The position numbers were made by a program, and so were the translations under genes. A stretch of 64,000 nucleotides of DNA, taken from assembly GCF_003946405.1 (NCBI RefSeq), contig NZ_RHOG01000006.1:1-64000 (forward strand). The letters are read 5' to 3'. The notes under the pieces are model-generated. The model saw nothing but the letters and a program-made list of their open reading frames with translations, made no database searches and was not told where the DNA came from. Source of the DNA: Lacticaseibacillus yichunensis (GTDB taxonomy: Bacteria; Bacillota; Bacilli; Lactobacillales; Lactobacillaceae). Of this stretch, positions 2,936 through 62,319 are shown piece by piece. Each line of letters starts with the position of its first letter. Position 1 is the stretch's first letter.

Positions 2936-3372
2936 CAGCGCGCCTCCTTAAAAAGACTGCGATACTCGCCGTAGCCAGCTTTGTCCAACTCCGCAACGGG
3001 AATGAACCGCAACGCCGCCGAGTTGATGCAATAGCGCAGGCCGCCTTGATCTTGAGGACCATCCGTGAAGACGTGCCCAAGATGTGAGCCGGCGTCTTGG
3101 CTGCGGACCTCGACGCGCTCCATGCCAAAGCTCTGGTCGCGATGTTCCTTCAGTTTGCCGATCGGCTTGGTGAACGCCGGCCAGCCGCAGCCCGCATCAT
3201 ACTTATCCGCCGAGGAAAACAGGGGTTCGCCGCTGACCACATCCACATAAATGCCATCTTGATAAAAATCATCATACCGTCCGGAAAACGGCCGCTCCGT
3301 GGCGGCGTGCTGCGTGACTTCATACTGTTCAGGCGTCAGTCTTTGCTTCAATTCGTCATCTGTTTGCTTCAT
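2935..3372 (-). CDS. msrB: Peptide methionine (R)-S-oxide reductase
   Basis: Reduces the R epimer of methionine sulfoxide and so complements MsrA. Of 145 residues, the conserved core includes GCGWPAF around 61-67, HLGHVF around 97-102 and [11 protein letters not shown], with the catalytic Cys near 115. The zinc-binding CxxC pairs of some MsrB proteins are absent, as in many Firmicutes. I chose the ATG at 3372, served by GAGGTGAGG; a GTG three codons upstream is possible. It forms a two-gene operon with msrA. Confidence 0.95.
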
Positions 3373-11085: not shown

Positions 11086-11136
11086 ACACTCAGGGCCGAT
11101 TTAGCTGTTCAGACTTAAACGCTCGGCTCCGCATCC
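11086..11136 (-). repeat. Truncated copy of the 126-bp palindromic repeat
   Basis: The minus strand starts with GGATGCGGAGCCGAGCG and continues with a left arm (TCTGAACAGCTAAATCGGCC), then diverges before the hairpin closes. Only the first part of a unit is present, adjacent to two full units. Confidence 0.8.
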
Positions 11137-11262
11137 TTTAGTTGAGCTTCGGCGGCCCGCATGGTCGGGTCATCCAACTGGTGCGTGCACTCGATGGCCA
11201 AGTGCGCCATCAAGCACCCGCCCCAAGTTGGCTGCCCGACCATCCCGCGGGCCTCCGCATCC
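11137..11262 (-). repeat. 126-bp palindromic repeat, GGCCCGC stem type
   Basis: On the minus strand the unit opens with GGATGCGGA, then GGCCCGCGGGATGGTCGGG. It closes with CCCGACCATGCGGGCC and the end motif GAAGCTCAACT. The apex pairs GATGGC with GCCATC. It lies between rel and dtd and is in the transcribed sense orientation. Confidence 0.9.
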
Positions 11263-11389
11263 TTTCCTAGTTGAGCTTCGCCGAGCAGGTCTGAGACAGA
11301 TAGTCGTCCTGGCCGCTCGATGGCCAAGTGCGCCATCAACCGTCCAGGCCGAACTATCTGCTCAGACCTAAACGCTCGGCTCCGCATCC
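11263..11389 (-). repeat. 127-bp palindromic repeat, CCGAGC stem type
   Basis: On the minus strand the unit begins GGATGCGGAGCCGAGC directly after the TAA stop of rel, with no spacer. The right arm ends CTCAGACCTGCTCGG and is followed by GAAGCTCAACT. The arms pair along most of the unit with isolated mismatches. Confidence 0.9.
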
Positions 11390-18908: not shown

Positions 18909-18996
18909 GGAGAGTTGGCAGAGTGGTAATGCAACGGACTCGAAATCCGTCGAACCGGCTAATACCGGCGCGCAGGTTCAAATCCTGTACTCTCCT
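18909..18996 (+). tRNA. tRNA-Ser(CGA)
   Basis: An 88-nt cloverleaf. The acceptor GGAGAGT pairs with ACTCTCC, and the anticodon arm ACGGA-CTCGAAA-TCCGT reads CGA for UCG serine codons. A long variable arm and the T-arm GGTTCAAATCC follow. No CCA is encoded. The gene is the attachment site of the IME: its last 59-60 bp are repeated at 23806-23864. The gene remains whole because the element end restores the 3' half. Confidence 0.96.
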
Positions 18997-18997
18997 T
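18938..18997 (+). repeat. attL: tRNA-Ser 3' half
   Basis: A 60-bp segment starting ACTCGAAATCC in the anticodon loop and running through the end of the tRNA to CTCCTT. It matches 23806-23864 except for one missing base and one substitution in the variable arm. Confidence 0.93.
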
Positions 18998-19022
18998 CAT
19001 AAAACGTTGATATGACAGAGTT

Positions 19023-19050
19023 CCGCAGCCTTTCTAGGTTGCGGTTTTTT
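19023..19050 (+). terminator. Terminator after tRNA-Ser, supplied by the element
   Basis: CCGCA pairs with TGCGG (19023-19043) and a T-run follows. It lies inside the element, so it now terminates the tRNA transcript in place of the original one near 23.9 kb. Confidence 0.8.
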
Positions 19051-19177
19051 GTTGCTTTCAAACGCTTGTTCGGGTCGGAATCGGCCTTCCAGTACCAGTG
19101 CAGTACCAGTTCGAAAAATCAGACCGCCGGTTTTGGCGGCAAACGTGTTCGGAATTTCATGTGATCAGACCTTTCTC

Positions 19178-20296
19178 TTAGAAGAATTTGTCGAGGGCAT
19201 CGGCCGTTTCGCGTTGCTTGTTGGGGAAAAGATGCCCGTAAGTGTCAATCGTGGTGACGATGCTGGCATGCCCCAGTCGTTCCTTGATGATCGTGTACTC
19301 TGTTTCTTGGTCGATCAACAAGGCAACGTGCGAGTGCCGGAAGTCGTGAATACGAATTTGCTTCATCATGGGATCGCGCTTGCAGATACGTTTGTAGCGC
19401 ATGCGGATCGTATGCTTGTTGCGGCGTATCAGCGTTGCTTGGAACATTGGCGTATCTTCGCTCCAGTCGAGGGCTAAGTCGTACTTAAAGAGTTCTTGTT
19501 GCTGTTCACGCCATTGCAGGAGCAAGGCGATCATGCCTTGGTTGAGGCTGATGCGGCGGTTGCTGGCCTTAGACTTTGGTGGCGTAATGATATCCACGCC
19601 GCCGCGTCGGAACACAGATTTGCTGACAGTCAGCTCTTTGCGTTTGAAGTCGAGATCCGACCAGTCTAGCGCGCAAAGTTCGCCGACCCGCAGGCCAGAG
19701 AAGAACAGTAGTGAGAACAACACATACCAGTCGAATTCCTCTGGCAGGTGAATCAGCTCGGTAAACGCGTGAAATTCATCAGGCGTGTAGAATTCCATTT
19801 TCTTGCGTTCGATTTTGAGCTTCTTCACGCCAATACAAGGATTTTCGACAATCACTTTCTCCTCAACGGCAACGTCGAGAATCAGCTTCAACTCAATCAA
19901 GGTCTTGTTGTTGGTGTTGTTGCTCAAATCGCGTTCTTCGGTGAGCCATTCTTGAAAGTCGCGTATATGCTCGCTAGTCAGGCGCTTAATATCGGCATTG
20001 ACGAAGAATGTCTGGATATAGCGCTTGTACACGGCGCGTTGTGACTGCAAGTAGGACGGCTTAATATGGATCTTAACGCGGTTCACGTACCGCTCGAATA
20101 ATTCGTCGAAGGTGACTGTTTCTTGATTGAACAGTCGGTCGACGCTAGTGCGCATCATCTCCTTTTCAACTTCGCGGGCAGCCGCCATTGAATGAATGCC
20201 TTGTTTCTTTTTGCGGCGGCGCCTGCCGGTGACGGGATCAGTGCCAAACGAGACACTGACAACATAGGTGCCATTAGGTGCTTGGGTAATGCTCAT
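19178..20296 (-). CDS. int: Tyrosine recombinase (integrase)
   Basis: Catalyses integration and excision of the element at tRNA-Ser. The 372-residue protein has an arm-DNA-binding AP2-like domain (about 1-50, SVSFGTDPVTGRRRRKKKQG), a SAM-like core-binding domain (about 65-150) and the catalytic domain (about 170-372). The catalytic arginine is in FFSGLRVGELCALDW, the lysine in PPKSKASNRR, the HxxR-type box in IRIHDFRHSH, the second His in GHASIVTT and the nucleophile Tyr in DTYGHLF. The ATG at 20296 has GGAGG. The extra 34 codons upstream have no ribosome binding site. Confidence 0.95.
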   Translation of the reverse strand: MSITQAPNGTYVVSVSFGTDPVTGRRRRKKKQGIHSMAAAREVEKEMMRTSVDRLFNQETVTFDELFERYVNRVKIHIKPSYLQSQRAVYKRYIQTFFVNADIKRLTSEHIRDFQEWLTEERDLSNNTNNKTLIELKLILDVAVEEKVIVENPCIGVKKLKIERKKMEFYTPDEFHAFTELIHLPEEFDWYVLFSLLFFSGLRVGELCALDWSDLDFKRKELTVSKSVFRRGGVDIITPPKSKASNRRISLNQGMIALLLQWREQQQELFKYDLALDWSEDTPMFQATLIRRNKHTIRMRYKRICKRDPMMKQIRIHDFRHSHVALLIDQETEYTIIKERLGHASIVTTIDTYGHLFPNKQRETADALDKFF

Positions 20297-20394
20297 TTCA
20301 TACCTCCAAATAATTGAAGGCACGCTTGCTTTGGTCGTTGACCATGATATACTTGGCTTGTCTAGGGCAAAGTATCGGGTGCGTGCAATCACGT

Positions 20395-21621
20395 TCATTC
20401 GTTGCTTTGTTTTTTTTCGTCTTCATGTTGCGCCTGTTCAAATACCTCCTTGAGTAACGTCTTCTGTTGCGGCGATAATTCAGCCTCGTTAATCATATCC
20501 GCGATCATGTCAGTACCATTGAGTGAATCGACTTGCTGAACCATTTTCAGACTGGGCGCGACTTGCTTGGTCAGCCAGTTCAGCACGCTGTCCATCGTGA
20601 TTGGTTCTGGCCGCATTGCTAGTTTCAAGCGATTACGGTTATCGCCGATAAAAGTTTGCCAGTCTGGATCTAGTGGACAATCGGCTAATTTCTTTGAGCC
20701 TTGTGGCGTTACGACCCGCAAGTAATGGTTGATGATCCCGAAGACGACCGTTTCGGCGTCTTGGCAGGCCAGCAGTTCCTTCATGGCTTTTTGAGCACGC
20801 TGGTCGCGAAGTCGGACTTCAAACCGGTTGAGGATTGGAGAATCCTCTGGATAGTCGATTTTGTTTTTGAAATATTGCTCGATGTCCTTTTGATAGCCAA
20901 TCATTTGCACCAAACTTTGTGGTGAACCGAATTGAACGGTTTTTCCGACGCGGCCTTTCTTAATGGTTTCGATTGCGCCTTTACTCTTGAACAAGCTCAC
21001 TAGTTCTTCTTTTTCGACTTTTTGAATCAGGTGGGGAATGTCGATAATCCCGACGGTATCATTGATGGCGAAGTCAACCCGTTTGTAGATCCCAGTTAGG
21101 TCATCGCAGGCCTGAAAAAAGTCGAACCAAGTTAGCCCATCTCGGACAAGCACTGCTTCTAGTTGACGGCAACCAGAGCCGTGCATCTCAATCATTGTTC
21201 CCAGATAGGCATTCGGGCCGCCCACGCGGGTACTCATGATTGAAATATCGCCACGCTGAATCGTGTAGTCGAACCCATAAAATGCCTTTTCAGTTAAGGA
21301 GAAGAAGTCCCTGTTCATTGGAAACAGCTTCTTGAACACATACTCGGCGTCTTGCGTATTGAACCGCACCCGCACGTAATCGACTAAGATAAACATCGAA
21401 TCACGATTGGTCAGGCCAAGGAGCGCGTGGCCTAGGCGTCGTTGTATTTCTTCGGTTAACGTAGCGCGTCCATTTAACAGCCGATTGACATAGGAGCGCG
21501 TCATGCCTAATTGCGCCGCAAGTTGCGTTTGACTGATACCGGCATCAGTCATCTGTTGGCGAAATTCCACCAACCAGCCGTGTCCAGTATGATCACGGCC
21601 ATTCATCATTGTTTTGTCCAT
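20395..21621 (-). CDS. MobT/Rep_trans-type relaxase or replication initiator
   Basis: A 408-residue protein with an N-terminal XRE helix-turn-helix (about 15-70, TQLAAQLGMTRSYVNRLLNG) followed by a replication initiation factor domain (PF02486 type, about 75-300, including MIEMHGSGCRQLE). This architecture is that of Tn916 Orf20 and ICEBs1 NicK, the MobT relaxases that nick oriT to start transfer and rolling-circle replication. The ATG at 21621 has GAGGTG. An inverted repeat like the nick region of these systems lies 110 bp upstream. A pure replication initiator is the alternative. Confidence 0.85.
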   Translation of the reverse strand: MDKTMMNGRDHTGHGWLVEFRQQMTDAGISQTQLAAQLGMTRSYVNRLLNGRATLTEEIQRRLGHALLGLTNRDSMFILVDYVRVRFNTQDAEYVFKKLFPMNRDFFSLTEKAFYGFDYTIQRGDISIMSTRVGGPNAYLGTMIEMHGSGCRQLEAVLVRDGLTWFDFFQACDDLTGIYKRVDFAINDTVGIIDIPHLIQKVEKEELVSLFKSKGAIETIKKGRVGKTVQFGSPQSLVQMIGYQKDIEQYFKNKIDYPEDSPILNRFEVRLRDQRAQKAMKELLACQDAETVVFGIINHYLRVVTPQGSKKLADCPLDPDWQTFIGDNRNRLKLAMRPEPITMDSVLNWLTKQVAPSLKMVQQVDSLNGTDMIADMINEAELSPQQKTLLKEVFEQAQHEDEKKQSNE

Positions 21622-21731
21622 TGCTCACCTCGTGTGCTCTGATTTCGCCGTCCGCGAACAGCCGATTGCCGTGCATAGCGGTGAATCGCCTGTGTTTTCT
21701 GCCTCGTTTCGGATTGTTGTTGTCATTTTGT

Positions 21732-21755
21732 GCCCCCCTGTTAGAATACGGGGGC
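21732..21755 (-). promoter_or_regulatory. Candidate oriT / nick region
   Basis: On the minus strand this is a 24-bp imperfect palindrome: GCCCCC, then GTATTC, then TAACAGGGGGGC. It resembles the oriT core of ICEBs1, as I recall it, in which a C-run and a G-run flank a segment ending CTAACAGGGGGG. It lies just upstream of the relaxase gene, where MobT-type oriT sites occur. A GC-rich tract with further inverted repeats follows up to 21835. Confidence 0.7.
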
Positions 21756-21834
21756 TTGGGCGGCCGGCTAACGCCGACCGCCGCCGCTCGCGCTAGCGGC
21801 TTTCGCGCTGCACGCCGCGCGCGGCGGCGTGGTG

Positions 21835-22035
21835 TTACGTGACCATTGCCAGATCTTCAAATGGATTGAAGCCTAACAGACTGACGATAGCGTGGAGTGG
21901 GACTTGACCGCACTTGCGGTTTGCATAGAAGCAGTGACCGTCTGCGACTAAGTTTAGTTTGCATTGATGGATAATCTGTCCGGCTTTGTAACCGGAAAAG
22001 CCAAGCTGCATAAGCATCTTCTTGTCGACTAACAT
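21835..22035 (-). CDS. DUF3173 family protein
   Basis: A 66-residue protein (MLVDKKMLMQLGFSGYKAGQ...) of the DUF3173 type, small helix-turn-helix-like proteins typically encoded with MobT relaxases and integrases in IMEs and ICEs. A role as excisionase or as relaxase accessory is likely by context. The ATG at 22035 has GAGGTG at good distance; an ATG eight codons upstream lacks one. It is the first gene of the minus-strand DUF3173-relaxase-integrase module. Confidence 0.75.
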   Translation of the reverse strand: MLVDKKMLMQLGFSGYKAGQIIHQCKLNLVADGHCFYANRKCGQVPLHAIVSLLGFNPFEDLAMVT

Positions 22036-22094
22036 GTAATCACCTCTTTTGGTTTGCATTTAACAGGTATGGGTTTATAATCTGCTATGGCTGA

Positions 22095-22123
22095 ATCATA
22101 TCATCCTCCAAGAGACTTATCAA
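22095..22123 (-). promoter_or_regulatory. Promoter of the mobilisation module
   Basis: The minus strand has TTGATA (22118-22123), a 17-bp spacer and TATGAT (22095-22100), a near-consensus sigma-A promoter reading into the DUF3173, relaxase and integrase genes. It diverges from the regulator promoter. Confidence 0.8.
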
Positions 22124-22165
22124 CCTCTTTAGGTAAATTACAAACAGGTTTCGTTTAATTATGTC

Positions 22166-22194
22166 TTGACACTTTCAATAGGTTTCATTAAGCT
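22166..22194 (+). promoter_or_regulatory. Promoter of the XRE regulator with repeated operator-like motif
   Basis: A consensus -35 TTGACA (22166-22171) with a weak -10 TAAGCT at 17 bp spacing. The motif AGGTTTCRTT occurs at 22146-22155 and 22180-22189, bracketing the -35, and may be bound by the regulator itself. Confidence 0.6.
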
Positions 22195-22227
22195 TCAAGT
22201 AAGGCCACACAAAGGAGAAATCAACCC

Positions 22228-22749
22228 ATGTTTGGAAAAAGCGAAGAAGGTATCGACAAGAAGCTCGCTAGAAATATACGCCGTATTCGTATGGAACGCG
22301 GCATGACGCAAAAAGACCTTGCTGATGCGATGGGCAGCATCGAGCAAAGTGTGTCTAAGTTTGAGCGGGCGATCTCTGCACCGTCCGCTAAAGCGATTAT
22401 GCAGTTATGTGAGGCGTTGCAAGTGACGCCCAACGACTTGTATCTCAATGATGCGGACTGGCGCAGCTGGCAGTCAGAGAAGCTCGAACACCAAGACCAT
22501 TCCGTTAACGGTTTGGTCGATCACGTCGAAATGGTTCAGAAGATGTTTGCAGAAGCAGAACTCGCCCGCAAAGCCGGAGATGAGAAGCTGGAGCGTGCTA
22601 CTCTAGATCAAATCATTCAGATGTACATGTGGACTAACGACCATTTTCGTGAAGTTGCGCACCTACTGGACCGGCGTTACGTGACCGACTACCTCGACAA
22701 GATGGAAAAGGAAACTCGTGACGCAATGATGAATGATGCTAATCGTTAG
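22228..22749 (+). CDS. XRE family transcriptional regulator
   Basis: A 173-residue protein with an N-terminal helix-turn-helix (about 13-68, MTQKDLADAMGSIEQSVSKFE) and a helical C-terminal part of unknown function (about 85-170). It is divergent from the mobilisation genes, the usual place of the element repressor. It has AAAGGAG 9 bp before the ATG. There is no peptidase domain of the ImmA type nearby, so induction is not explained by the visible genes. Confidence 0.88.
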   Translation: MFGKSEEGIDKKLARNIRRIRMERGMTQKDLADAMGSIEQSVSKFERAISAPSAKAIMQLCEALQVTPNDLYLNDADWRSWQSEKLEHQDHSVNGLVDHVEMVQKMFAEAELARKAGDEKLERATLDQIIQMYMWTNDHFREVAHLLDRRYVTDYLDKMEKETRDAMMNDANR

Positions 22750-22807
22750 ATTCTTGTACGTTTAACTTGTTTATAGTGGGACATCTATTTTGCTCCGTAA
22801 GTTCAGC

Positions 22808-22816
22808 TGGTATAAT
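22808..22816 (+). promoter_or_regulatory. Extended -10 promoter of the lipoprotein gene
   Basis: TGGTATAAT gives a start point near 22823. It lies after the regulator stop, so the cargo gene has its own promoter and is probably expressed in the integrated state. Confidence 0.75.
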
Positions 22817-22856
22817 AGTGACAAATAGAGGCAAAAAAGAAAGTGGGTTGAGACAT

Positions 22857-23615
22857 TTGAAGAAGTTTTTGGGAATTTTGGGTGGGCTCTTGTTAGTGGG
22901 AAGTTTGTTTATGCTGACCGGCTGTAGTGAGGAAAAAGCATTATTTTTAGATGTTCCGACATCTATCGAAGCTGACACTGGTGGGAATGTTACGATTAAA
23001 GGAAAGACATTGCCTGATACAGACGTAAAGATTGGCCTAGGAATTATTGGGGACAGCACGACATCAGATGAAAAAGGGAATTTTTCACTAAAATACGAGC
23101 TGTCATCGGAGGACGAATCTTCGACGATTAAGATTACAGCTAAAAGCGATGACGATAAAAAAACAAAATCAGTTACGGTAAAACCGAACGCTGCTAAAAT
23201 GTCTAGTCAGAAGGCTGCATCATCTTCTAGTGAAAGTGCAGCGAAAGCATCAGAGTCTTCTGCAAGTGCATCATCACAAGCAGATCAGGCGAAAATTGAA
23301 GCAGTGGCCAAGAATTATACCACGTCATATCAGGTTAAATTTCAAGACTACACGGTTATTTACTTAATTAACGAAAAAACCAAAACCATTGCGATGACCA
23401 CTTCCGATGAACCCGAACATGTATCAACAAGTCAGTACACTGGCAACTTCAACGATGGTATTGACTTTAATATGGACGGACTAGCAATGCATGCGCACTA
23501 TCATTACGTAGATCAACCGGCTGCCTTAATTGTCACCGATGAGTCTGGAAACGAAAATAAGGCAGTACAAATAGATCCAGCAACATCAGTTCAGTACTAC
23601 CACTTATATAAGTGA
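22857..23615 (+). CDS. Cargo lipoprotein with Ig-like domain
   Basis: A roughly 252-residue surface lipoprotein, function unknown. The start is probably TTG at 22857 (LKKFLGILGG...), or TTG at 22848; an ATG at 22767 lies upstream of the promoter. A signal peptide ends in the lipobox LTGC with the lipidated Cys near residue 21. A bacterial Ig-like region follows (about 30-95), then a Ser/Ala-rich linker (about 105-140), and a C-terminal domain ending in VQYYHLYK. By position beside the element repressor it resembles superinfection-exclusion lipoproteins of temperate phages, but I cannot show homology. Confidence 0.75.
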   Translation: MKKFLGILGGLLLVGSLFMLTGCSEEKALFLDVPTSIEADTGGNVTIKGKTLPDTDVKIGLGIIGDSTTSDEKGNFSLKYELSSEDESSTIKITAKSDDDKKTKSVTVKPNAAKMSSQKAASSSSESAAKASESSASASSQADQAKIEAVAKNYTTSYQVKFQDYTVIYLINEKTKTIAMTTSDEPEHVSTSQYTGNFNDGIDFNMDGLAMHAHYHYVDQPAALIVTDESGNENKAVQIDPATSVQYYHLYK

Positions 23616-23805
23616 CTCTGTCAAATTGGTAAAGTATGATATTTCTTTATAACAAAAAGGCCGCCAACCAGTGACGACCAACCAAGTATATTTGCGTGCC
23701 AATTCAGTACCACTTCATCCAAATTCAGCCGATTTCAATCGTTCCAATCGCACCAAGAATGCCGTTAAATCAGCAATCCGACGCCATCCAAGCCGTCAGA
23801 TTACA

Positions 23806-23864
23806 ACTCGAAATCCGTCGAACCGGTAACACCGGCGCGCAGGTTCAAATCCTGTACTCTCCTT
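23806..23864 (+). repeat. attR: duplicated tRNA-Ser 3' half
   Basis: A 59-bp copy of the tRNA-Ser 3' half with CCGG-TAAC in place of CCGGCTAAT in the variable arm. It has no 5' half, so it is not a working tRNA. It is the original chromosomal 3' end left behind after integration. Confidence 0.93.
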
Positions 23865-29609: not shown

Positions 29610-29735
29610 GGGTGCGGAGGCCCGCGGGATGGTGGAACAGCTAAGTCGGCTCAGGTGCTTGGTGGCGCTTCTTGCCACCGAGTGCATGAGACGCTTAGAT
29701 GCTTCCACCATGCGGGCCGGAGCCCAACTGCGAAA
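29610..29735 (+). repeat. 126-bp palindromic repeat, GGCCCGC stem type
   Basis: It starts GGGTGCGGA, with arms GGCCCGCGGGATGGTGGAA and TTCCACCATGCGGGCC. The apex pairs GGTGGC with GCCACC, and the unit ends GAGCCCAACT. It lies between the divergent recJ and the 108-residue protein gene. Confidence 0.9.
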
Positions 29736-32735: not shown

Positions 32736-32861
32736 GGGTGCGAAGCGGGGCGTTCAGGTCTGAGCAGCTAGTGCGGCCTGGGTGCTTGGGGGCGCACCTT
32801 GCCCACGAGTATCCAGGTCGACTAGATGCCTCAGACCTACCCCGCGGAGCCCAACTGTGAA
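32736..32861 (+). repeat. 126-bp palindromic repeat, GCGGGG stem type
   Basis: It starts GGGTGCGAA, with arms GCGGGG...AGGTCTGAG and CTCAGACCTACCCCGC, a paired apex, and the end motif GGAGCCCAACT. Its orientation is antisense to the dnaJ-lepA direction. Confidence 0.88.
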
Positions 32862-32925
32862 GGGTGCGGAGCCGAGCGTTTAGGGGTGGACAGGTAGTTC
32901 GGCCTGGGCGGTTGAGGCTTGCGAT
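32862..32925 (+). repeat. Truncated repeat unit, CCGAGC type
   Basis: The left half of a unit (GGGTGCGGAGCCGAGCG, then TAGTTCGGCCTGGGCGGTTGA). The match ends before the apex. Confidence 0.78.
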
Positions 32926-41257: not shown

Positions 41258-41372
41258 GTGAAGCGGGGTCGCAATGGGGCGCTTAGGTCTGCGCAGTTCG
41301 CTGGGCCGGGGTGCTGAAGGTGCCTTCGTCTCGAGTGCACCGGTCAACTTGAAGCCCCGCCCTCAGCGCTCA
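41258..41372 (+). repeat. Decayed member of the palindromic repeat family
   Basis: Arms AAGCGGGG and CCCCGCC, a middle with CTTAGGTCTGCGCAG and GAGTGCACCGGTCAACT, and the same spacing as other units. The conserved ends are mostly lost, so membership is less certain. Confidence 0.6.
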
Positions 41373-41390
41373 TCTTTGCACCTTGAATCA

Positions 41391-59726: not shown

Positions 59727-59755
59727 AGTATACCCAAGCGGCTATGTTTTGACAA
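59727..59755 (-). promoter_or_regulatory. Sigma-A promoter of rpsB-tsf
   Basis: The minus strand has TTGTCA (59750-59755), a 17-bp spacer and TATACT (59727-59732). Confidence 0.85.
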
Positions 59756-59771
59756 GCAAAATTAGTTGACA

Positions 59772-59896
59772 GGGTGCATAGGCCCGCGGGATGGTCGAGT
59801 AGCTAGTTCGACTTGGGCGCTTGGTGGTGGCTTTGCCACCGAGTGCACGAGTCAACTAGATACCTCGACCATGCGGGCCGGAGCCCAACTTGGACA
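59772..59896 (+). repeat. 125-bp palindromic repeat, array unit 1
   Basis: It starts GGGTGCATA. Arms GGCCCGC and ATGGTCGAG pair with CTCGACCAT and GCGGGCC; inner CTAGTT pairs with AACTAG; apex TGGTGG pairs with CCACC. It ends GAGCCCAACTTGGACA. Confidence 0.93.
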
Positions 59897-60021
59897 GGGT
59901 GCATAGGCCCGCGGGATGGTCGAGTAGCTAGTTCGACTTGGGTGCTTGGTGGTGCTCTTGCCACCGAGTGCACGAGTCAACTAGATACCTCGACCATGCG
60001 GGCCGGAGCCCAACTTGGACA
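59897..60021 (+). repeat. 125-bp palindromic repeat, array unit 2
   Basis: Nearly identical to unit 1 and exactly the same length; the few differences lie around the apex. Confidence 0.93.
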
Positions 60022-60146
60022 GGGTGCGGAGCGCGGCGTTCAGGTCTGAGCAGCTAACAGGGGCTGGTGCTTGGGGCCGAACTTAGCCCCGAGTGCCGGA
60101 CCCGGTTAGCTGCCTCAGACCTGCCGCGCGCAGCCCAACTTGGACA
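60022..60146 (+). repeat. 125-bp palindromic repeat, array unit 3 with different stems
   Basis: Same length and ends, but the stem sequences are new. GCGCGGC pairs with GCCGCGC, AGGTCTGAG with CTCAGACCT, CAGCTAAC with GTTAGCTG, and the apex GGGGC with GCCCC. It ends 4 bp from the stop of the GIY-YIG gene on the other strand. Confidence 0.93.
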
Positions 60147-60150
60147 GGTA

Positions 60151-60420
60151 CTATTTTTGCCAGTCGACCTCATGTGCGGTCAAAAATGCTTCCTTATCAG
60201 CCCGGGTCTGGTGTTTGAAATGCCACTCCGCGGACAAGGCGTCGTGCCGCTCGGAAAAAGCTTCCGCATACAAAAGCCGAACCGGTCTGCGTGTTTTCGT
60301 ATACTTGGCACCCTTTCCAGCATTATGTGTGGCGACCCGCTCCCCGACATCGGTGGTGTAGCCGCCGTAAAAAGTGCCATCCGCGCATTTCAACACATAA
60401 AAATAAAAGATCTCACCCAT
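60151..60420 (-). CDS. GIY-YIG domain protein
   Basis: An 89-residue single-domain protein of the GIY-YIG nuclease superfamily (UPF0213 type). [18 protein letters not shown] contains the YVL...YGGYT form of the motif; the catalytic Arg is probably in VGERVATHN and a Glu in SAEWHFK. The cellular role of this group is unclear. The ATG lies inside the end of the upstream methyltransferase gene (8-bp overlap), a conserved arrangement in Firmicutes. Confidence 0.9.
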
Positions 60421-62033: not shown

Positions 62034-62065
62034 GAGCTCACGCATAACCGCTCGGCTCCGCACCC
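62034..62065 (-). repeat. Truncated palindromic repeat
   Basis: The minus strand reads GGGTGCGGAGCCGAGCGG and then TTATGCGTGAG, the left end of a unit, and stops at the plsC terminator. Confidence 0.8.
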
Positions 62066-62192
62066 TTTTTCAGTTGGGCTTCGCCGAGCATGCCTGAGTC
62101 AGCTAGTCGGTCTGGTCGCTCGATGGCTAAAGGCGCCATCAACCGCCCAGCTCGAACTATCTGCTCACGCATAACCGCTCGGCTCCGCACCC
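62066..62192 (-). repeat. 127-bp palindromic repeat, CCGAGC stem type
   Basis: On the minus strand GCCGAGC pairs with GCTCGGC, CAG.TAGT with ACTA.CTG, CTGG with CCAG, and TTGATGGC with GCCATCGA. It ends GAAGCCCAACTG. Confidence 0.92.
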
Positions 62193-62319
62193 TTTTTCAG
62201 TTGGGCTTCGCCGAGCATGCCTGAATCAGCTAGTCAGTCTGGTCGCTCGATGGCTAAAGGCGCCATCAACCGCCCAGCTCGAACTAGCTGCTCAGGCAAA
62301 ACCGCTCGGCTCCGCACCC
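62193..62319 (-). repeat. 127-bp palindromic repeat, second tandem unit
   Basis: Same length and stem type as the neighbouring unit, with a few differences. It begins 22 bp before the start codon of the permease gene, close to its ribosome binding site. Confidence 0.92.

Follow-up and report, generated by a model that had tools for sequence, protein, structure and literature searches.

What keeps the two arms of a hairpin complementary while both of them change? The array at positions 59772-60146 of the 64,000-nucleotide window (the whole stretch of DNA that we analysed, from a close relative of Lacticaseibacillus mingshuiensis) raises this question. The original prediction described three units of 125 bp, the third sharing the end motifs of the other two but having different stems, changed on both arms together, and read this as covariation in a unit that is copied whole. 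We found the three units, with the named stems and end motifs, lying head to tail, each exactly 125 bp long and made of a 119-nt long hairpin followed by the spacer TGGACA; TRF gave a period of 125 for the array. After unit 3 come the spacer and then GGTAC (Table 1). Hairpin folding had been claimed as well, and units 1, 2 and 3 each fold into a single long hairpin (-76.7, -74.1 and -86.3 kcal/mol; z-scores of -8.6, -7.4 and -7.8), with 0 of 200 shuffles folding as well. The opposite strand of units 1 and 3, the two that were folded both ways, gave weaker structures (-61.8 and -72.5 kcal/mol, respectively).

The array is flanked by the end of a GIY-YIG gene and by the promoter side of rpsB, and starts 17 bp upstream of the predicted rpsB promoter-like site; no promoter-like site was found within the array itself. 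An assembly artefact is unlikely, because the separately sequenced L. mingshuiensis carries the same array at the same position and the family recurs in many other assemblies. The L. mingshuiensis array consists of two units, one of the unit 1/2 type and a second whose core is identical to that of unit 3.

Table 1. Units of the hairpin family in the window, and the promoter-like site next to the array.
Feature	Position	Strand	Support or remark
Promoter-like site of rpsB, TTGTCA, 17 nt, TATACT	59727..59755	-	consensus match only
Unit 1	59772..59896	+	hairpin 59772-59890 and spacer TGGACA; R1 116.4 bits
Unit 2	59897..60021	+	near-identical to unit 1; R1 119.5 bits
Unit 3	60022..60146	+	other stem type; R1 103.0 bits
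GGTAC, possible stump of another unit, too short for certainty	60147..60151	+	
Second array, unit	62199..62319	-	TRF, R1 model
Second array, unit	62072..62192	-	TRF, R1 model
Second array, incomplete last unit	62036..62065	-	
Unit	11269..11389	-	R1 model
Unit	11140..11262	-	R1 model
Incomplete last unit	11091..11136	-	
Unit	29610..29729	+	R1 model; then spacer and incomplete unit from 29736
Unit	32736..32856	+	R1 model
Incomplete last unit	32862..32917	+	
Decayed unit	41267..41375	+	R1 22.7 bits

The same hairpin family occupies four further sites of the window, in addition to one decayed copy. At one of these, 11091-11389, unit remnants are present in the sister genome (G013, taken as L. mingshuiensis 117-1). 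Scores with the covariance model R1 were 103-132 bits on one strand vs 16-26 bits on the other, a preference that is partly built in, since R1 was built from the top strand of the units. A different kind of element lies at 18909-23864, a stretch that remains unaligned in L. mingshuiensis: a small integrative element of ~4.8 kb, bounded by a 38-nt repeat (97%) of the 3' end of tRNA-Ser(cga), with genes for a tyrosine integrase, a rolling-circle replication initiator (Rep_trans) and an HTH regulator.

Beyond the window, a BLAST search with the array, in which 40 of 142 candidates were scored, gave 57 matches in this genome, and R1 found at least 120 units there, mostly in short tandem arrays. 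R1 counts are lower bounds, because the model missed a unit that is plain by eye (locus L091). We read 43 arrays in this genome and 41 in the sister; those in this genome hold one to six units. Most of the scored arrays close with an incomplete unit, 37 of 42 in this genome and 31 of 40 in the sister; the array upstream of rpsB is among the 5 of 42 not scored as ending in this way. The arrays are intergenic, and several start directly after a T-run or a stop codon. L. mingshuiensis contig NZ_BOLS01000030.1 also carries a unit. A one-contig relative (G020) has at least 148 units spread over its whole chromosome, in 123 arrays of which 99 consist of a single unit.

The copies were collected, aligned by structure and tested for covariation. 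The alignment of this genome holds 100 of its 103 distinct full units, three odd ones being excluded. RNAalifold placed 40 pairs on it, 30 of them with changes on both sides; 96.5% of the cells were paired, vs 80.1% after shuffling, and the covariation score was 0.509 vs 0.206, with 0 of 500 shuffles as high. Shifting the structure by 1-3 columns lowered the score to at most 0.096. Across 32 species, 147 units (140 distinct; 112-124 nt long) showed changes on both sides of 40 of 40 pairs, with 93.0% of cells paired vs 62.1% and a score of 0.791 vs 0.200, in an alignment that was fitted to the model and hence leans toward it. Paired changes are therefore far above chance in both sets. Linkage between columns was equal within an arm and between opposite arms, as it must be because the arms are complementary; alone it does not reveal how units recombine.

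Several short motifs are conserved across species: tGcG.A near the start, GC(G) in the outer stem, a TA on each arm and, around the apical loop, CG and TT, followed by TGC and AgC.C near the end. Many units also have a TTAG-like bulge (seen by eye), and columns 17 and 105 form a G-U pair in 99 of the 100 units.

The paired changes are thus real, and the units behave as copied folds. The step from units 1 and 2 to unit 3 is another matter: both are types that recur elsewhere in the genome, and the difference between them is therefore not covariation that arose within the array.

The sister genome allowed us to ask how old the paired changes are. We compared 45 units, from 19 orthologous arrays, with the units of the sister; for 24 of them the best match sits in the orthologous array, where chance would give 1.0. 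We used 20 of these 24, hand-picked at an identity of at least 0.92; A30_2 and A41_1, each of which duplicates another unit of its array pair, were left out, as were A6_0 and A10_3 (arms of two types or lower identity). The 20 orthologous pairs differ at 52 base pairs, 51 of them changed on one side and only one on both. Since nearly all changes between the sisters are one-sided, the paired differences between unit types look mostly older than the split of the sisters, and assembled by copying. Of the one-sided changes, 24 keep the pair through G-U and 27 break it (13 to C-A, 14 otherwise); the similar numbers of pair-breaking and pair-keeping changes, together with the single double change, give little sign of repair in place or of strong selection. 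Weak selection on the standing fold is possible, as paired columns changed less than unpaired ones (3.3% vs 7.1%) and G-U outnumbers C-A, by 24 to 13 in the orthologous pairs (p 0.10) and by 72 to 42 among rare variants in all units (p 0.006).

What has changed since the split is the content of the arrays. For 15 of the 45 units, identity to anything in the sister's orthologous array is below 0.8, with relatives at 0.81-0.93 elsewhere in the sister; each such unit is either a gain here or a loss there. The surroundings stay: orthologous arrays have flanks of 89-98% identity and, for the most part, the same left boundary, spacer and terminal variants. Flanks that could be matched always met an array in the other genome, which means little as the stretches had been chosen for holding arrays. 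Spacers (1 to 7 or 8 nt long) are a local property. They are identical in 48 of 85 cases within arrays vs 73 of 4475 between arrays, and in the sister in 27 of 75 vs 46 of 3495 (the spacer and end tables cover 42 of the 43 arrays here and 40 of 41 in the sister). They also resemble the left flank, with a likeness of 2.30 vs 1.51 when shuffled (0 of 2000) and in the sister of 1.92 vs 1.45 (1 of 2000). Similarity of the terminal 22 nt is 0.92 within arrays vs 0.84 between them, and of the hairpin core 0.70 vs 0.65. The idea of a unit copied whole with constant ends did not hold, as the spacer and the terminal 22 nt are specific to the array and the core hardly so. Judged from these sequence comparisons, the linker seems to stay in place while the hairpin within it is exchanged.

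One orthologous pair points to exchange within an array. In the sister array that matches 32736-32917 there is one unit more, beside the flank and with the spacer AA. The first unit and the incomplete last unit of that array depart from ours in the same way at their left ends, as such exchange would leave them. By eye, arms of two types are seen in units at L015, L019:1585-1703 and L027:1354-1473, and two units of L015 resemble reciprocal exchanges at the apex. At the edges of the arrays L009, L012 and L014 we noted, again by eye, GGGTGCGGAACCCAACT-like pieces, in which the hairpin was apparently lost between GGAG-like repeats at its base.

Sites in related species are occupied, empty or decayed. 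In the interval upstream of rpsB, R1 found units only in L. mingshuiensis among 24 Lacticaseibacillus loci. We read the gap between rpsB and tsf by eye: it holds two units and a stump in L. hulanensis, one unit (missed by R1) and one shrunken in L. zhaodongensis, apparently just the final bases of a unit in L. sharpeae, and no unit in L. songhuajiangensis or L. thailandensis. The site lies right after the same T-run in all five species. The clearest case of a copied flank is an array of L. nasuensis, where TAAGTTGT stands between the units and at the left flank. In L. suibinensis, L. suilingensis and L. pantheris, the interval between the GIY-YIG gene and rpsB holds a different, apparently structured stretch of ~150 nt (L073, L083 and a diverged L088; seen by eye), which in L073 and L088 had no Rfam match.

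Within the genus, R1 detected the family in 26 of 30 genomes (E <= 0.001), at 0 to at least 120 units per genome; G003, G017, G021 and G022 gave no match. A family-wide draw gave 14 of 201 genomes and 5 of 40 genera (strict filters, E <= 1e-6), and an order-wide one 40 of 395 genomes and 16 of 80 genera (model R2, strict filters, E <= 1e-5); the 24 order-wide examples listed retain the hairpin and most motifs. Among 49 GIY-YIG loci there were 17 matches, in 6 of 24 Lacticaseibacillus loci (one of the six being a metagenome bin named Lactobacillus sp.) and in 0 of 25 others. An L. casei-type unit matched 14 plasmid records of Pediococcus and Lacticaseibacillus, a query from family f5 weakly matched one Aerococcus record, and plasmid searches with the array of this genome or with units of two other species gave no match. 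In plasmids of L. paracasei and Pediococcus inopinatus, the IIB and IIC genes of a mannose/fructose-type PTS operon have a unit between them (L252 and L254, about 3001-3115). A phage origin was made unlikely by three queries that had no blastn match in phages. A known Rfam RNA was rejected, as the searched units stayed below every curated threshold (best MIR1437, a long-hairpin model, at 34.2 bits vs 168 required); the only Rfam matches overall were the tRNA of the window and a Transposase-1 RNA at L046 837-891.

The array upstream of rpsB thus belongs to a dispersed family of long hairpins with conserved short motifs and old covariation, whose members differ in their hairpins within local linkers. 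We regard it as plausibly a non-autonomous, fold-dependent repetitive DNA element, a reading in which we place about as much belief as doubt. The hairpin of one strand would form in single-stranded DNA, probably at replication, and well-folded units would be copied preferentially, which may keep the arms complementary over long times. Arrays could grow and shrink by slippage or by unequal exchange between units and the incomplete end unit. Hairpins might come in from other arrays, through template switching or an undescribed enzyme, entering and leaving at the base of the hairpin, where most units are similar over ~10 nt at either end; new sites would be founded less often, along with a short copy of the flank. 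Units with arms of two types, seen by eye, are what crossing-over at the apex would give. Against this reading, no enzyme was found, the units that lack a counterpart could have been lost from the sister and not gained here, the conserved G-U pairs and internal-loop motifs would suit RNA too, and G020 shows no replication-strand bias (52 of 123, p 0.10, provided that its contig starts at the origin), which a model based on the fork might predict. More tentatively, and on balance doubtfully, the family may stand for an order-wide class of structured elements with a site-fixed linker and a replaceable hairpin, propagated as a folded single strand without Y1 transposase or reverse transcriptase, through an undescribed enzyme or host replication.

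The main rival, which we consider unlikely though it deserves to be taken seriously, is a structured RNA: the units would act in transcripts, by stabilising or processing them, as terminator-like structures or as small RNAs, and selection on the RNA would keep the fold. One strand does fold better than the other, the G-U pair of columns 17 and 105 and the short motifs across 32 species are conserved, and plasmids carry a unit within a sugar PTS operon. However, the gene to the left of the arrays has no preferred orientation (20 of 42 here, 18 of 37 in the sister), nor has the gene to the right in this genome, where it points toward the array in 25 of 43 cases (the neighbours being the longest open frames, not annotated genes). 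The array itself has no promoter-like site, units turn over fast and about half of the one-sided changes break pairs. The bias of the right-hand gene in the sister (29 of 40, p 0.006) leaves slightly more room for a role related to transcripts.

Less probably still, the units could be a chromosome-organising repeat, with hairpins bound by a putative host protein and retained by the host. Gyrase, IHF and Pol I have been reported to bind REP and BIME sequences, and the conserved motifs and the spread of the family across the whole chromosome of G020 would suit such a role. However, copy numbers differ between congeners, from 0 units found to at least 120, a range that suits a mobile repeat more than a site that the cell needs.

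Three further mechanisms are very improbable. A REP/REPIN-type element moved by a RAYT or another Y1 transposase would have the same life style, with dispersed, clustered hairpins that show compensatory changes, as reported for REPINs (PMC3116915), and the genome of the array has two Y1 genes of its own. Yet a unit was found by model search at only 2 of 12 Y1 loci, in neither case adjoining the gene, and four unit-rich genomes (G007, G010, G011 and G018, with 56, 106, at least 120 and 109 units) have no Y1_Tnp match, which makes movement by such an enzyme unlikely. Quasipalindrome correction, in which a polymerase copies one arm onto the other, would change both arms together and create pairing without selection, and units with arms of two types would be its substrates. 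As the main source of pairing it is made unlikely by the one double change among the 52 changed pairs, and the 5' bulge and the G-U pair of columns 17 and 105 persist although correction would erase them. Retrotransposition of a transcribed unit, the least probable of all, would explain one fixed end, an incomplete other end (copies being 5'-truncated when read on the complementary strand) and flank copies, but five rich carriers (G000, G013, G007, G011 and G018) have no RVT_1 match, which makes reverse transcription unlikely. Since several rich genomes lack matches to Y1 or RVT_1, neither enzyme seems needed for the fold-dependent repeat that we favour.

The family adds a large repeat to a group of food and probiotic bacteria; searches of the open-licence PubMed Central literature, from which most subscription journals are absent, gave neither a description nor a name for it. 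It offers a clean case of palindrome spread, in which old covariation, recent turnover and local linkers can be separated by means of two sister species. It also carries a warning, in that covariation among the repeats of one genome can be old diversity that was gathered, not selection in place. On the practical side, such arrays may hamper assembly and typing, and their variable length could make them useful as markers.

Among known systems, integron attC sites are likewise long single-strand hairpins in tandem, with variable stems and key unpaired bases. The attC core is GTTRRRY, and the unit end GCCCAAC, which reads GTTGGGC on the other strand, fits it. Unlike attC sites, however, the units have no cassettes between them, and the GTTRRRY/RYYYAAC core is not kept: AAC is lost in many units and species, with ends such as GACT, TACT or GTTT.

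The behaviour of the family is closest to that of REPINs and BIMEs, yet the tests that define these, a cognate RAYT and a short tagged palindrome, failed. As in REP, BIME and REPIN sequences, the hairpins are dispersed, clustered, intergenic and present in many copies, with compensatory arm changes of the kind described for REPINs and BIMEs (PMC3116915, PMC2817692). REP palindromes have a GTAG- or CGTC-type tag at one end, according to PMC3733652. In contrast, the unit consensus ends in GGGTGC and a GACT-like sequence, without such a tag. The units are also longer (~120 nt vs palindromes of 20-40 bp), they are co-oriented within arrays instead of alternating, and the four rich genomes named above have no Y1 transposase.

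EFAR, ERIC, RUP, NEMIS and Bcr1 are treated in PMC3733652 as small, non-autonomous, palindromic intergenic elements, and the units resemble EFAR and other bacterial MITEs in being repeats of this kind; an autonomous partner element was not seen here. ERIC is about 127 bp long and EFAR about 170 bp. As for the fixed-length target-site duplication of MITEs, the spacers resemble the flanks, with TAAGTTGT as one clear case, and they vary in length from 1 to 7 or 8 nt. The enterococcal EFAR repeats may be relatives of the family.
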